44,956 bases of DNA, from IMG/VR virus record IMGVR_UViG_3300043540_000934, positions 1-44,956 of that record. The stretch is one strand, 5' to 3'. The notes under the pieces are model-generated. The model was not told where the DNA came from. It ran no database searches and was given only the letters and a program-made list of their open reading frames with translations. This DNA is from a virus. Positions 20,471 through 44,575 of the stretch are shown here, piece by piece. The position numbers and the translations under genes were made by a program. Within the stretch, counting starts at the first letter, position 1. Every line of letters starts with the position of its first letter.

Positions 20471-20478
20471 TCATGCAG
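20463..20478. repeat. Inverted repeat at the transposase stop codon
   Basis: CTGCATG-GT-CATGCAG is a perfect 7-bp inverted repeat with a 2-bp spacer, spanning the TGA of the transposase (20471-20473). It may help end the transposase transcript or may be part of the element's recognised end. Confidence 0.4.
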
Positions 20479-21502
20479 CGGCAGCCAGCGCCGGGTCTCT
20501 GTAATCCTCGCCCTTCGTCAGCATGGCCCAGATTGCGCGGGCCATCTTGTTCGCCAGCGCGATCGCAACCAGCATCTTCGGCTTGCGCTCCAGCATCCGT
20601 GCCAGCCACGAGCCTGCGGCGATGGATTTTTGCCCGAGCCAGTTGATCCGCGACATGGCGCCCATGATGAGCAGGCGCCGGATGTCAATCTGTCCGGCTT
20701 TGGAGACACGCCCCAGCCGCTCCTTGCCGCCCGAGGAATGCTGGCGCGGCACAAGGCCGAGCCAGGCGGCGAAGTCGCGGCCCCGCCGAAACGAGCTCAT
20801 GTCGGGAGCGAAGGCTTCGACCGCAAGCGCGATGAGCGGGCCGACCCCGGGCATCGTCTGCAGTCGCCGAGCTGTGTCCGTCTGGGTGGCCAGTGCCTTG
20901 ATCTGCTTCATCCGCGCGTTGATGCGCGTGCTCGCCTGGGCGATCTGGTCGAGCAGGTCCCGGCATTCCGCGCGAACCAGCTCGGGAATGGCACTCGCCG
21001 GATCCTCGACGAACGCCGAAATCCGTTTGATCGCAACCAGCCCCTGCGGAAAGCTGTGGCCGAACTCGTAGAGATGCGAACGGAGCGCATTGATCAATTC
21101 GGTACGGTGGTGCACGAGCCTCGCCCGGCTGCGGAACAGAACGGCGCGCGCCTGGGCGGCCTCATCCTTGGGCTCGACGAAGCGCATATCGGGACGCTGC
21201 GCCGCGGTGACGATCGCCTCAGCATCGGCAGCATCGTTCTTCTGGCGCTTTACGAAGGGACGGACATATTGGGGCGCGATCAGCTTCACCTCATGTCCAA
21301 GGCGGGTAAGTTCACGACTCCAGAAATGCGCACCCGCGCAGGCCTCCATCACCACAACTGCCGGAGGGTGCTGGGCCATGAACCTTTCGAACTGTAGGCG
21401 TGAGAGCTTCTTGCGAAACTGCACGTGCCCCGTCATCGAGGCGCCATGGAGCTGGAAAACACGCTTTGCCAAATCGACGCCGATCATCGTATCTTTCGTC
21501 AC
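20471..21502 (-). CDS. IS110-family transposase (DEDD/serine recombinase)
   Basis: The 343-aa protein has the DEDD RuvC-like N-terminal domain (IGVDLAKRVFQLHG; VVMEACAGAHFW; KNDAADAEAIV) and the C-terminal transposase_20 domain (LQTMPGVGPLIALAVEAF; FAAWLGLVPRQHSSGGK with the conserved serine region). It moves the element through a bridge-RNA-guided reaction in studied IS110 members. The GTG at 21502 gives the typical VTKDTMIGVDLAK start; the ATG at 21487 is an alternative. The frame is intact, so the element may be active. Confidence 0.9.
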   Translation of the reverse strand: MTKDTMIGVDLAKRVFQLHGASMTGHVQFRKKLSRLQFERFMAQHPPAVVVMEACAGAHFWSRELTRLGHEVKLIAPQYVRPFVKRQKNDAADAEAIVTAAQRPDMRFVEPKDEAAQARAVLFRSRARLVHHRTELINALRSHLYEFGHSFPQGLVAIKRISAFVEDPASAIPELVRAECRDLLDQIAQASTRINARMKQIKALATQTDTARRLQTMPGVGPLIALAVEAFAPDMSSFRRGRDFAAWLGLVPRQHSSGGKERLGRVSKAGQIDIRRLLIMGAMSRINWLGQKSIAAGSWLARMLERKPKMLVAIALANKMARAIWAMLTKGEDYRDPALAAAA

Positions 21503-21623
21503 GGTTGCCGTCCCTTCTGCTTGTGGTTCTGAAGACCACCTTTTTGGCACACTGCGATGCCGTCTGAAGAGGGCGGCAACCACCCCATCTTCTACGACCC
21601 CGAGCCCCGCGTTGGAGCGGGGC
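21503..21623 (-). ncRNA. Putative IS110 bridge RNA region
   Basis: On the minus strand, 5' of the transposase start, a perfect 7-bp hairpin (GCCCCGC/GCGGGGC, 21604-21623) is followed by a ~79-nt stem-loop closed by GGTTGCCG (21503-21510) with CGGCAACC (21574-21581). A further hairpin (GTGGT 21523-21527 with ACCAC 21535-21539) lies inside. A 5' stem-loop followed by stem-loops with internal loops is the published build of IS110 bridge RNAs, encoded upstream of the transposase. The loops could not be matched to target or donor sequences by eye. Confidence 0.45.
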
Positions 21624-21648
21624 AGAGCACTTGTGGGGCGGAAGCCAA

Positions 21649-21894
21649 TCAGCTTCGGCGCGACAGGACGCGGTCCATGGATTGCTGGAAGGTTTCGTTG
21701 GGAAGCGCAGTCTCGGCGGCCTGCCGGATCACGCCAAATACGACGAGCTGTACGCGCCTGACTGCCTGTTCGAGTGTCTCTCCGGGCTGGACCCGCGCGC
21801 CGCAATTCGCCAGGAATTTTCGGAGCGCCGGCTCGCGCGCGGCGGCGACGCGCGCGCGAATCTCTGCGGGCGAAAGGCCACCCCAGTCATCCAT
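21649..21894 (-). CDS. Small unknown protein beside the IS110 element
   Basis: The 81-aa product starts MDDWGGLSPAEIRARVAAAR and is helical and polar; I do not recognise a family. The start is firm: AGGAGG lies about nine bases before the ATG at 21894. It ends (SMDRVLSRRS) at the edge of the IS110 upstream region, so its C-terminus may have been trimmed by the insertion. It is divergent from the terminase genes, with ~116 bp between that must hold both promoters. Confidence 0.6.
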   Translation of the reverse strand: MDDWGGLSPAEIRARVAAAREPALRKFLANCGARVQPGETLEQAVRRVQLVVFGVIRQAAETALPNETFQQSMDRVLSRRS

Positions 21895-29009: not shown

Positions 29010-29012
29010 GTG

Positions 29013-29330
29013 ATGGACGCGTTTGCCGCGGCAACCGACGCGCTGTTCGCCGACCCGAACATCGCCCGCGACGCCATCTGGCGCGCGGGCGGTGTGGGCA
29101 ACGGAGTGTCCGTCCGCATCATCACCAAGCGGCCCGACCAGGTCGGCTCCTTCGGCGACAGCCGCGCGATCCTGCCGACCACGCTGATCGACGTGCGCCG
29201 CTCTCAGGTCTCAGAGCCCGCGAGCGGCGACACGGTCGAGATCGAAAGCGAGACCTTCGAGGTCATCGCGACGCCGACTCTCGACAACCTGCGGCTCGTG
29301 TGGACCTGCGAGGCGGCACCGCCGGCATGA
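29013..29330 (+). CDS. Head-tail joining protein, gpFII-like
   Basis: This 105-aa protein has a helical N-terminus (AAATDALFADPNIARDAIW) followed by beta strands (VSVRIITKRPD; TLIDVRRSQVS; DTVEIESETFEVIATPTLD), as in lambda gpFII, which attaches the tail to the filled head. The ATG at 29013 is chosen; an in-frame GTG at 29010 adjoins the capsid stop and is an alternative. Confidence 0.7.
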   Translation: MDAFAAATDALFADPNIARDAIWRAGGVGNGVSVRIITKRPDQVGSFGDSRAILPTTLIDVRRSQVSEPASGDTVEIESETFEVIATPTLDNLRLVWTCEAAPPA

Positions 29331-29333
29331 TCC

Positions 29334-29990
29334 ATGCGGTTCACGCTCAAGACCGACGACCTCACCAAGGGTTTGACCGAGGCAGAGGGCGATGCGGCGC
29401 GGTCCGTCACCAGCGCGATGCGGGAGGCGACCGAAGGCCTCAAGGCCGATCTTCGGGCCGATGTGGTCGATGCCGGCCTCGGGCAGCGCCTCGCCAACAC
29501 CTGGCGCGGTAAGACTTATCCGGAAGGCGGTGTCAGTCTCGAAGCGGCGTCCTTTGTCTGGTCGAAGGCGCCCAACATCGTCGATGCGTTCGATCGCGGC
29601 GTGACGATCAAGTCGAGCCGAGGCTTCTGGCTCGCGATCCCGACCCCTGCTGCGGGCGTGAAGGGCTTGAGCGCGACCGGCGGCATGAAGCGGATCACGC
29701 CGGGCGGGTGGGAACGCCGGACCGGCATGAAGTTGCGCTTCGTCTATCGCCGCGGGCGTCCGTCGCTGCTCGTCGCCGACAACGCGCGGCTGAGCAAGAA
29801 GGGGCTCGCGCGGCCGAACATCGGCCGTACCCGCGCCGGCGCGCAATTCACGCGGTTGAAGGGCCGCTCGACCGTGGTGGTGTTCATCCTGGTGCCGCAG
29901 GTCACGTTGCAAAAACGACTCGACATCGCAAGCGCGGCTCGGCGTTGGGCTGATCGCGTCCCCAGCCTGCTCGCGAGTCATTGGAGATGA
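29334..29990 (+). CDS. DUF6441 tail-associated protein
   Basis: The 218-aa protein matches DUF6441 in pattern: RGFWLAIPTPAAGVKG, TGMKLRFVYRRGRPSLLVAD, and a C-terminal VVVFILVPQVTLQKRLDIAS. Members occupy the place of lambda gpZ-type minor tail proteins near the head-tail connector; the precise role is unknown to me. Its TGA overlaps the ATG of the microprotein gene (ATGA). Confidence 0.75.
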   Translation: MRFTLKTDDLTKGLTEAEGDAARSVTSAMREATEGLKADLRADVVDAGLGQRLANTWRGKTYPEGGVSLEAASFVWSKAPNIVDAFDRGVTIKSSRGFWLAIPTPAAGVKGLSATGGMKRITPGGWERRTGMKLRFVYRRGRPSLLVADNARLSKKGLARPNIGRTRAGAQFTRLKGRSTVVVFILVPQVTLQKRLDIASAARRWADRVPSLLASHWR

Positions 29991-30076
29991 TGGTGGATCA
30001 CAAGAGAGTTGCGATCCTTATGACGCTTCTATCTTTCGCCTTCATTGCTTCGGTTCTCATGGCGACAGCACGATGA
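29987..30076 (+). CDS. 29-residue single-pass membrane microprotein
   Basis: ATG 29987 opens a frame of 29 codons: a short charged N-terminus (MMVDHKR) followed by one hydrophobic segment (VAILMTLLSFAFIASVLMA). Its ATG overlaps the DUF6441 stop and its stop overlaps the next gene's ATG, both as ATGA, and GGAG lies just upstream. The double coupling and membrane-like composition make it a real gene despite its size. Function unknown; a helper in virion assembly or a membrane-active peptide is possible. Confidence 0.7.
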   Translation: MMVDHKRVAILMTLLSFAFIASVLMATAR

Positions 30077-30507
30077 CCAGCCGACGAGAACAGGTGCTCG
30101 ACGCGATCAGGGCGCTGGTCACGTCCGCGCTGCCGAACGCTGACGTTAAGCGTAACCTCGCCAAACCGGAGCGCATCCCGCCGGGCGGGCTTGCGATCAT
30201 CCGCGATGGCGATCCGGGCGAGCCGGAAGTCATCCTGTCGCCCCTCATCTATATCTACACGCACCGCATTGCGGTCGAGATCGCGGCGTATGAGACTTCG
30301 AGCGAGACCCGTGAGCAGGTGCTCGACGGAATGCTCGGTGCGATCGGAGCGGCCGTGAGCGCGGACCGCACGCTTGGCGCCCTGTGCGATTTTATCGAGG
30401 CCGAAGCACCGGCGACGGAAGATATCGAGACGACCGGAGCCCGCGCAGGCCGCTGGGCCGACGTCGCAATCGTCGCGGTCTACGGCACGACCGATCCCCT
30501 GAACTGA
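30073..30507 (+). CDS. Putative tail terminator (gpU-like) protein
   Basis: This 144-aa protein has an N-terminal helix (REQVLDAIRALVTSAL), a central strand region (GGLAIIRDGDPGEPEVILSP) and VAIVAVYGTTDP at the C-terminus. Homologues in Rhizobiales have sometimes been labelled acyl-CoA transferase without support. Position just before the tail-tube gene matches lambda gpU, the tail terminator. The start is fixed by the ATGA overlap with the microprotein gene. Confidence 0.65.
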   Translation: MTSRREQVLDAIRALVTSALPNADVKRNLAKPERIPPGGLAIIRDGDPGEPEVILSPLIYIYTHRIAVEIAAYETSSETREQVLDGMLGAIGAAVSADRTLGALCDFIEAEAPATEDIETTGARAGRWADVAIVAVYGTTDPLN

Positions 30508-30532
30508 ACCCCCTCTATCATCGGAGACTCCC

Positions 30533-31474
30533 ATGGCACGCGCACGCGGCGCCAACGCCGTCATGGCTGCGGCATTCGAAACGACTTACGGCATCGCCCC
30601 GGTTGCCGGCTTCAAGAAGCTGCCGTTCGTTTCCTCGGCGCTTGGCGACGAGCAGAACCTGATCGCAAGCGACCTCTTGGGTTACGGCCGCGAGCCGCTG
30701 CCGCCTAGCCGGGATGTGGTCAACAACGACGGTGACGCCGTCGTGCCGGTCGACCTGCGCAACTTCGGCTACTGGCTCAAGCTCCTGATGGGCGCTCCGA
30801 CCTCGGTCGACAATTCGGGTGTCATTACCCATACGTTCGTGTCGGGCGCGCTGACGCTGCCCTCCATGGCAATCGAGATCGGTATGCCGGAAGTGCCGAG
30901 CTACGGCATGAACGTCGGCGTGCGCGCCAACACCATGAAGATTCAGCTGCAGCGGTCCGGGCTCCTCAACGCCACCATGAGTCTGATCGCCCAGGGCGAG
31001 ACGAAAGCGACCTCGTCGGCCGCCGGCTCGCCGAGCGAAGCCGCGATCGAGCGGTTCTCCCAGTTCATGGGCGAGATCAAGCGCAACGGCACCGCGCTCG
31101 GCCACATCGTTTCGGCCGAGCTCACCTATGCCAACAATCTCGACAAGGTCGAGGTCATCCGTCCCGATGGCCGCATCGAAGACGCCGATCCGGCGATGGT
31201 CGCGGTCACCGGCAGCGTCAACGTGCGCTTTGCCGACACTGTGCTGCTCGATCAGGCGACCTCGGGCGACCCCTGCGAGCTCTCGTTCGGCTGGGCGATC
31301 GATGCCGACAAGTCGCTGCTCTTCACCGTGCACAGCGCCTTCCTGCCCAAGCCCAAGACGCCGATCCAGGGTCCGGGCGGCATCCAGGCGGCCTTCGCCT
31401 GGCAGGCCGCCAAGGACCCGGCCCTGCTCAAGACCTGCACCGCGGTACTGGTCAACGACGTTGCCGCTTACTGA
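30533..31474 (+). CDS. Tail tube protein
   Basis: The 313-aa protein begins MARARGANAVMAAAFETTYG, as do many Gram-negative siphophage tail-tube proteins, and has alternating beta-rich segments (MKIQLQRSGLLNATMSLIAQ; LGHIVSAELTYANNLDKVEV). It would polymerise around the tape measure to form the tail. A GGAG lies ahead of the ATG. The tail chaperones follow after 17 bp. Confidence 0.9.
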   Translation: MARARGANAVMAAAFETTYGIAPVAGFKKLPFVSSALGDEQNLIASDLLGYGREPLPPSRDVVNNDGDAVVPVDLRNFGYWLKLLMGAPTSVDNSGVITHTFVSGALTLPSMAIEIGMPEVPSYGMNVGVRANTMKIQLQRSGLLNATMSLIAQGETKATSSAAGSPSEAAIERFSQFMGEIKRNGTALGHIVSAELTYANNLDKVEVIRPDGRIEDADPAMVAVTGSVNVRFADTVLLDQATSGDPCELSFGWAIDADKSLLFTVHSAFLPKPKTPIQGPGGIQAAFAWQAAKDPALLKTCTAVLVNDVAAY

Positions 31475-42444: not shown

Positions 42445-43776
42445 ATGGCGGCTTCTACCTATGACGAGGCGCTGCGGCGCCTGCTCGCGCACGAGGGCGG
42501 CTACAGCAATCATCCCTCCGATCCCGGCGGTCCCACCAACTTCGGCATCACGCTCGCGGACTATCGCCGCTACATCAAGCAGGACGCCACGGCAGCGGAC
42601 GTGCGCGCCATGTCGGTCGACCAGGCGAAGGCGATCTACCGCAAGCGTTACTGGGATGCGCAACGGTGCGACGAACTGCCGGCAGGCGTCGACTACAGCA
42701 TCTTCGATTACGGCGTGAATTCCGGGATCGGCCGCAGCGGCAAGGTGCTGCGCCGCGTCGCGGGTCTGCCGGACAACATGAGCACCGTCACAGATCAGGT
42801 GCTCGCGTACGCGCGCGCCCGCGATCCAAAGGTGCTGGTCGCCGCCATCTGCGACGAGCGTCTCGCATTCCTGCAGTCGCTCAAGATCTGGCCGATTTTC
42901 GGCCGCGGCTGGGCAAGGCGCGTCACCGAGGTGAAGGCGGTCTCGCTCGCATTGGCGGGCAAAGCGCAAGGCGTCACGCCGAGCCCGGCAGCTGTGCCAA
43001 TAGCCGGCACGCCGCCGTGGCTCGCACGGATGAACGCAATCCTCGGGCTTTACGAGTTTCCTGGGACCGCGGACAACCCGGCGGTCGTCGCCATGGCCAG
43101 GGCCTGCGGCGGCAACATCGCCCGCACGTACAAGCACGACTCGATTCCGTGGTGCGCGCTCACGGTCAATTACGCCCTCATCGCTTCCGGGCTTCGCGGA
43201 AACGATAGCCTCTGGGCGCTCGACTTCGCGCGCTATGGCGTTCGCCTGAAGGGTGCCGCCGTCGGCGCAATCGCGACCAAGAGGCGCGACGGTGGCGGCC
43301 ACGTCTTCCTGGTGGTCGGTCGCACGCGGGACGGCCGTCTGGTCGGGCGCGGCGGCAACCAGCGCGACATGGTCTGCGACGAGGTCTTCGATCCTTCCGT
43401 CGTCACGGCCTTCACCTGGCCCAAGGATTACCCGCAGCCGGCACAGGTCGGCTTCGCGGCGCTGCCCGTCATTGAGCCTGCGCCGAAGGCAAAACGCGAG
43501 ATCGTGCTGCCGCCGCCGACGAAGCTCGATCTGCCCGCGAAGGGCATCGTGCCGCCGCCCAAGGCCGCGAAGGACATCATCACCAAGGGTGTGCCGGCCG
43601 GCGGCGCTGCCGGTGGCGTCGGCTTCTGGGACTGGATCGCGGCGCATCCCTGGGAAACCGCCGGCATTGCGCTTGTCGGTGTCGGCGCGGTCGGCGGCGC
43701 CGCCTACGCGCTCAACCGCTGGCACGCGCGCCGTCAGGAAAGGCCGACGCCGCACCTGGTCCCTATTGCAGCTTAA
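42445..43776 (+). CDS. Two-domain endolysin with C-terminal membrane segment
   Basis: The 443-aa protein joins a GH108 muramidase (AHEGGYSNHPSDPGGPTNFG; catalytic E17; PG-binding-3 region to ~165) to a TIGR02594/CHAP-like peptidase domain (C237 in SIPWCALTVNYAL; H286 in GGGHVFLVV; residues ~185-330). A Pro/Lys-rich linker is followed by one hydrophobic helix (residues ~405-425, AGIALVGVGAVGGAAYAL) and a basic end. Two cell-wall cutting domains plus a membrane anchor is unusual for a lysin. It would degrade peptidoglycan at lysis, or be a virion enzyme. Confidence 0.85.
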   Translation: MAASTYDEALRRLLAHEGGYSNHPSDPGGPTNFGITLADYRRYIKQDATAADVRAMSVDQAKAIYRKRYWDAQRCDELPAGVDYSIFDYGVNSGIGRSGKVLRRVAGLPDNMSTVTDQVLAYARARDPKVLVAAICDERLAFLQSLKIWPIFGRGWARRVTEVKAVSLALAGKAQGVTPSPAAVPIAGTPPWLARMNAILGLYEFPGTADNPAVVAMARACGGNIARTYKHDSIPWCALTVNYALIASGLRGNDSLWALDFARYGVRLKGAAVGAIATKRRDGGGHVFLVVGRTRDGRLVGRGGNQRDMVCDEVFDPSVVTAFTWPKDYPQPAQVGFAALPVIEPAPKAKREIVLPPPTKLDLPAKGIVPPPKAAKDIITKGVPAGGAAGGVGFWDWIAAHPWETAGIALVGVGAVGGAAYALNRWHARRQERPTPHLVPIAA

Positions 43777-43791
43777 CCCAAAGAGCAGACG

Positions 43792-44181
43792 ATGCTGATG
43801 TTCATCCTCGTCGCCGCGACCTTTGTCGCGGTCTACTGGTTCTGGATTCGCCCCATCCTGAAATCGCGGCCGGCCTTCCGCGAACTCTACGAGCAGGAGG
43901 AGAGCTTCCTCACGGCCGTGCGAGAGAAGTTCGCCGGCATCAAGCAGAAGCTCTCGTCCGCCATCGTGGTCGCCGCGAGCATCGCGGTGAGCGGCTACGA
44001 CTTCATCGCACCGATCGTGAGCGGCGTCGACGTGAGCTCGATTTCGGCGCAGGTCCCGTCCTGGGCATGGCCGCTGATCCTGATCTCGGTGACGGCGCTC
44101 TTCCAGTTCCTGCGCAACCTCTCGGACAAGCGCCACCAAGCCGAGCTCGCCGACAGTGCCGCGCCGGCGCAGGAGGGCTAG
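43792..44181 (+). CDS. Small membrane protein of the lysis cassette
   Basis: This 129-aa protein has an N-terminal membrane helix (MFILVAATFVAVYWFWI), a second hydrophobic stretch (SSAIVVAASIAVSGYDFIA) and a third (WAWPLILISVTALFQFL), then a polar end. No named family is recognised. Position between endolysin and holin suggests a holin, antiholin or spanin-like helper. It starts 15 bp after the endolysin stop. Confidence 0.6.
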   Translation: MLMFILVAATFVAVYWFWIRPILKSRPAFRELYEQEESFLTAVREKFAGIKQKLSSAIVVAASIAVSGYDFIAPIVSGVDVSSISAQVPSWAWPLILISVTALFQFLRNLSDKRHQAELADSAAPAQEG

Positions 44182-44185
44182 CGCG

Positions 44186-44575
44186 ATGTGGACTTGGCTC
44201 GCAAGCCTCGTTGGCGGGCCGGTGATTACCGGCCTGATCAATGCCTACAAGGCGAAACTGGACGCGGCGAACACGCAGGACAGGATCGCGGCAGACCTCG
44301 CGGCTAAGGAGATCGAGGCCGAGATCGAAGCCCGGAAGCAGGCGTCGGCGATCGTCATCGCCGAACAGGGACGCTGGTACACCGCGATCATCCGGCCGCT
44401 GCTGGCGCTCCCGATCATCATCTACCTCTGGAAGGTAATCGTCTGGGACAAGGTGCTCGGTCTCGGCACCACCGACCCGATCACGGGCATGATCGCCGAT
44501 TGGACCGGCATGATCCTCACCGCCTATGTCGGCGGTCGGTCCATCGAGAAGGTCGCCCGGATCCTGCGCCGATAG
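44186..44575 (+). CDS. 3TM-type holin (GTA_holin_3TM)
   Basis: The 129-aa protein starts MWTWLASLVGGPVITGLINA, has a charged central helix (RIAADLAAKEIEAEIEARKQ), two more hydrophobic helices (IRPLLALPIIIYLWKVIVW; WTGMILTAYVGGRSIEKVAR) and the VWDKVLGLGTTDPI motif of the GTA_holin_3TM family. It would make the membrane lesion that lets the lysin reach its target. AGGAGG lies at 44171-44176, ahead of the ATG at 44186. Confidence 0.85.
   Translation: MWTWLASLVGGPVITGLINAYKAKLDAANTQDRIAADLAAKEIEAEIEARKQASAIVIAEQGRWYTAIIRPLLALPIIIYLWKVIVWDKVLGLGTTDPITGMIADWTGMILTAYVGGRSIEKVARILRR

Follow-up and report, generated by a model that had tools for sequence, protein, structure and literature searches.

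A gene of only 27 codons in the head-tail operon of IMG/VR virus record IMGVR_UViG_3300043540_000934 (44,956 bases, the whole of which was analysed and is referred to here as the window) is under purifying selection, more than chance would allow, and is almost certainly a coding gene. Its product is very probably a membrane peptide formed by a single hydrophobic helix. On balance, from sequence and setting, it appears to be a lineage-specific accessory inner-membrane peptide, made together with the late genes and acting on the host envelope.

The head-tail genes of the window are in a lambda-like order (head decoration, major capsid E, attachment protein, DUF6441, tail terminator and tail tube; Table 1), and one small frame fills the space from the DUF6441 stop (29988-29990) to the terminator ATG at 30073. 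A preliminary description of this DNA had likewise placed the frame in the head-tail operon and suggested that it might be unannotated; neither Pfam, PHROGs nor PADLOC gave a match to the microprotein. Among the papers searched, none dealt with DUF6441. The head-gene block is preceded, at a distance of a few hundred bases, by an IS110-family transposase (20474-21805, minus strand).

Table 1. Microprotein gene, its signals and its neighbours in the window
Feature	Position	Strand	Remarks
Microprotein gene, 27 codons	29993-30076	+	GTG start; TGA stop (30074-30076)
Microprotein product			(f)M-DHKRVAILMTLLSFAFIASVLMATAR
Two codons, ATG ATG, 5' of the GTG start	29987-29992	+	From the 29-residue reading; probably not used as start; no start codon at the equivalent of 29987 in 13/48 relatives; GGAG abuts the ATG
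GGAG, predicted ribosome-binding motif of the microprotein	29983-29986	+	Inside the C-terminal codons of DUF6441; 6 nt before GTG 29993
ATGA, overlap of microprotein stop and tail-terminator start	30073-30076	+	RTGA at 51/51 junctions
DUF6441 protein (PF20039)	29334-29990	+	Upstream neighbour
Tail terminator (phrog_4204)	30073-30507	+	Downstream neighbour
Head-tail attachment protein (PF05354)	29010-29330	+	Context
Tail tube protein (PF18906)	30533-31474	+	Context

Loci for comparison were collected from viral (61) and genome (80) sequences and from two further viral scans; those left out were three without DUF6441, five cut before its stop and the duplicates L062 and L143. A DUF6441 stop could be read in 276 loci, which yielded 156 unique DUF6441-terminator junctions; of these, 69 were directly joined, 51 had a small gap, 28 had large inserts and 8 were undetermined. 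Conservation of the coupled frame in DUF6441 relatives, proposed earlier as a check, was found in part: the frame was present at every one of the 51 small gaps and missing from the directly joined junctions. It has 27 codons, free of indels, in 48 of the 51, 26 codons in L065 and 24 in L039 and L191.

The start at ATG 29987, which would give the 29 residues first described, was rejected, since the GGAG motif lies directly against that ATG (and 6 nt from GTG 29993) and the equivalent codon, although ATG in 31 and GTG in 4 of the 48 full-length relatives, is no start codon in the other 13. Judged from the sequences, the conserved start is GTG 29993, so that the predicted product has 27 residues and begins two codons inside the first reading. 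A GGAG, GGAGG or GGAA motif ends 5 to 6 nt before this start in 48/48 full-length relatives, the start codon being GTG in 36 and ATG in 12. In 39 of them this start follows the DUF6441 stop by 2 nt, and in the other 9 the two overlap. The ATGA overlaps reported for both ends of the gene are literally present (ATG 29987 with TGA 29988-29990, and 30073-30076), but as a conserved trait only the one at the 3' end survives. The 5' ATGA is probably incidental in the window because of the position of the conserved start and the variability of codon 29987. In contrast, the overlap of microprotein and terminator is invariant, the terminator starting in ATGA at 23 and in GTGA at 28 of the 51 junctions.

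Selection on the frame was evident at the amino-acid level. In 20 disjoint pairs of sequences dN/dS was 0.33 in the microprotein frame (bootstrap 0.19-0.52) compared with 0.91 and 2.14 (frame +2) in the two other frames, and the lowest value in 1000 neutral simulations was 0.58. In 84 close pairs dN/dS was 0.27 in frame versus 1.08 and 2.78 out of frame; values for the neighbouring genes in these pairs were 0.08 (DUF6441) and 0.23 (terminator). Over all pairs, where synonymous sites are near saturation, pN/pS was 0.60, and the two other frames gave 1.01 and 1.45. Parsimony gave 141, 79 and 228 changes at codon positions 1, 2 and 3, respectively (44 distinct sequences, start excluded), and stops occur in frame +1 in 42/44 and in frame +2 in 11/44 distinct sequences. 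An N-terminal extension of the terminator through this stretch was rejected, as it would use frame +2, with its dN/dS of 2.14. A structural RNA was likewise rejected, since the sole Rfam match was below threshold and on the other strand (29751-29827). Base composition also changes here, with G+C falling to 0.48 over the microprotein (29970-30059) versus approximately 0.65 around it; among relatives the G+C of the coding sequence is 0.49-0.64.

The 19-residue hydropathy maximum is at least 2.27 in 47/47 distinct peptides (a measure of hydropathy only), and in all of them residues 7-23 contain no K, R, D, E, H, N or Q, giving an uncharged core of 17 residues. Together with the dN/dS in frame and the invariant 3' overlap, this bears out the earlier proposal of a coupled, one-helix membrane microprotein. 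Mean net charge (His not counted) is +0.74 in the first seven residues and +0.51 in the last four; as the former is so small, an N-in topology would be only weakly indicated. Conservation among the 47 peptides showed no significant helical periodicity (p 0.45) and so offers nothing that would point to a packing face; a conserved helix face was rejected on this result. The 24-codon L039 fits the peptide profile only at an E-value of 0.84.

A search with a 14-row profile found 5/5 positive-control genomes at E-values of 4.1e-11 or better. Among 391 host-family genomes 18 passed an E-value of 0.01, of which 9 were strong (no higher than 2.3e-9; four of them are control genomes). Each of the 9 strong matches sits between DUF6441 and the terminator; the 9 weak ones are without both neighbours. 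In 385 genomes of the class the sole strong match was the centre genome itself. DUF6441 was found in 33/397 genomes of the order, where 23 of 30 junction loci were read (one strand scanned) and the peptide was present in 1 of the 23. It is present in 8 of the 80 genome loci (L063-L069 and L072), whose hosts are Nitrobacter, Pseudolabrys, Hyphomicrobiales bacterium, Pseudorhodoplanes, Chelatococcus and Bradyrhizobiaceae; L068 is a prophage of the Chelatococcus sambhunathii type strain. A tblastn search of phages and plasmids, weakened by its filter and the short query, gave no homologue, and weak matches of 14-21 residues (L325-L335) were dropped, being without DUF6441 and terminator. The microprotein is bound to one lineage of Hyphomicrobiales prophages and, with 9/391 host-family genomes and only the centre genome in the class, is not the widespread component suggested earlier.

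Within this lineage the gene is accessory, having been lost several times with the head-tail operon undisturbed and its neighbours still readable, so the idea of a phage component, if that means an essential one, is not supported. L010, L020, L023/L024/L027 and L046 fall inside the peptide-bearing group yet have no peptide, their neighbouring genes being joined. Such joining in relatives had been named beforehand as evidence against the gene; it does occur, but since selection acts on the frame wherever it exists, these lineages appear to have lost a dispensable gene and do not speak against there being one. Remnant frames of 4 to 5 codons in L023, L024 and L046 (MTTTP, VTTTP and MTLP, respectively) have a stop that overlaps the terminator start, and we read them as probable internal deletions because the C-terminus of L039 is ATLP. 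On the DUF6441 tree (153 loci) peptide presence needs seven Fitch changes; on four gene trees (92 loci) it needs four for the terminator and six for the other genes. Support for the node of the peptide-bearing group is low (0.49), and L256 bears the peptide but groups with a different DUF6441 group, so that a single gain would need recombination and mosaicism is likely.

The history of the gene also bears on whether the peptide is an assembly or virion component, either a helper that completes the tail while tethered to the membrane, or a virion-borne peptide freed at DNA entry. The best argument for such a role is that the gene keeps strictly to its place between DUF6441 and the terminator, to which can be added coupling to the translation of a structural gene and the slightly better fit of presence to the terminator tree. 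However, the repeated losses beside readable neighbours argue against a requirement, and other DUF6441 phages do without the peptide, as at the 69 directly joined junctions. We regard an assembly role as unlikely, though worth keeping in mind.

Less likely still is a translation device, in which coupling through the frame would chiefly control how fast the tail terminator is translated, the peptide being incidental. Pairing with the anti-Shine-Dalgarno sequence is weaker at the terminator start than at the microprotein start (-4.5 versus -6.9; random -2.8), and the remnants in L023, L024 and L046 retain the overlap. However, terminators at directly joined junctions pair similarly (mean -5.0), and neither amino-acid-level selection nor strict hydrophobicity is expected of a mere spacer.

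Larger genes also enter this junction. Inserts of > 400 nt were found between DUF6441 and the terminator in 27/145 loci, compared with 5/146 at attachment-DUF6441, 5/92 at capsid-attachment, 12/139 at terminator-tube and 10/126 at tube-chaperone. Pfam analysis of 20 insert proteins, from 13 hand-picked loci of the 40 junctions listed, gave matches to ParE, Phd/YefM, RelB, TacA1 with GNAT, Gp49, HTH, PIN/MazE, ParD, Fic and DUF5131, and two insert proteins without a Pfam match were assigned by PADLOC to PDC-M41A, a candidate defence protein. Toxin-antitoxin or Fic genes occupy the junction in L080, L087, L090, L097, L099, L100, L102, L107, L190, L202 and L293, sister phages that include Magnetospirillum and Hyphomicrobiales prophages. 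In L043 (3778-5435) and L045 (3774-5431), both within or beside the peptide-bearing group, the slot of the microprotein holds DUF5131 with a PDC-M41A-like protein, which together form a candidate defence pair. Inserts judged by eye not to resemble toxin-antitoxin genes are those of L287 and of L114, L117 and L138, the last three (Methylobacterium-group prophages) having, after the DUF6441 stop, secreted-looking proteins with collagen-like Gly-Pro repeats. One junction further on, between terminator and tail tube, L007 (4194-4694) and L036 (4185-4703), the two checked with Pfam, have HNH/AP2 homing-type endonuclease genes.

The microprotein shares with morons and other cargo its presence or absence at a fixed junction among related phages. 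The junction might be a standing cargo slot, most users of which carry a toxin-antitoxin or defence module while the lineage of the window carries a minimal membrane exclusion peptide of 27 residues, which L043 and L045 would have exchanged for the two-gene PDC-M41 candidate defence; we consider this full scheme rather doubtful. Most of the toxin-antitoxin inserts examined are on the opposite strand, whereas the microprotein gene is co-directional and coupled, and a consensus scan for one promoter type found neither promoter nor terminator of its own. Against the accessory reading preferred here, the peptide was never away from the DUF6441/terminator junction in the 9/9 strong genome matches, and free-standing cargo might be expected to move.

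Toxin-antitoxin genes occupying this junction in sister phages raise the question of a type I-like hydrophobic toxin. DinQ (27 residues) and ShoB (26 residues) of Escherichia coli, membrane-acting toxins described in PMC8309996, resemble the microprotein in length and in having a single hydrophobic helix. Unlike them as described there, the microprotein is coupled, and co-directional, in a structural operon, and no antitoxin or antisense RNA of its own was seen. Neither a sigma-70-like promoter site nor an Rfam match at threshold was found at 29300-30600, although these tools are blind to a new antisense RNA. A toxin of this kind seems improbable. An accessory lysis protein, holin-like or concerned with lysis timing, is just as improbable. 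A single hydrophobic helix of suitable length and probable late expression would suit it, but an endolysin (GH108) and a holin-family protein are already encoded further downstream in the window (42445-44575), so that a further lysis function is not needed; the microprotein lies outside this cassette and has no holin-family match in Pfam or PHROGs. That the frame is open by chance and not a gene, as its shortness and lack of library matches might suggest, is scarcely credible in view of its dN/dS and conservation.

The preferred reading remains an accessory peptide of the inner membrane. Translation of the microprotein would begin from a ribosome-binding motif of its own in the final codons of DUF6441, and ribosomes would then pass to the tail terminator via the ATGA/GTGA overlap. 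The gene presumably has its origin in a single lineage of Hyphomicrobiales prophages, where it is kept under selection but has been lost repeatedly. As it sits in the structural operon, synthesis is probably late; the peptide may insert N-in, possibly as an oligomer, into the inner membrane of the host and may alter the envelope of the cell that makes it. The most likely form of this activity is superinfection exclusion or an effect on membrane potential directed at competitors, although we put it forward tentatively. It is preferred because the peptide is dispensable, very probably membrane-bound, apart from the lysis cassette and at the site used by sister phages for toxin-antitoxin and defence genes.

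Phage small proteins of < 100 amino acids have been reviewed, with examples that act on repressors or host gene expression (PMC11323111). The microprotein is similarly a tiny unannotated phage gene that probably acts on the host but, unlike those examples, is predicted to be in the membrane. Lambda RexAB and Sbash gp30/gp31, prophage exclusion systems that depolarise the membrane (PMC6426596), are comparable only in the outcome proposed here, in which a membrane protein of a prophage counters competing phages; RexB and gp31, as described there, have several membrane spans and a partner, unlike the microprotein. Genes of < 300 nt, g3.5 and g10.1, also occur in the alphaproteobacterial head-tail cluster of the Rhodobacter gene transfer agent (PMC9765227), but, compared by description and not by sequence, they differ in position and function as far as these are known. 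A literature search for small exclusion proteins gave no paper. The microprotein belongs with the phage small membrane proteins, a descriptive class and not a named family.

Gene callers usually apply a minimum of approximately 90 nt, and the coding sequence of the microprotein, with its stop, is 84 nt. It adds a selected family of 27-residue genes that annotation has passed over, and it points to a junction of DUF6441 phages at which accessory and defence genes collect.
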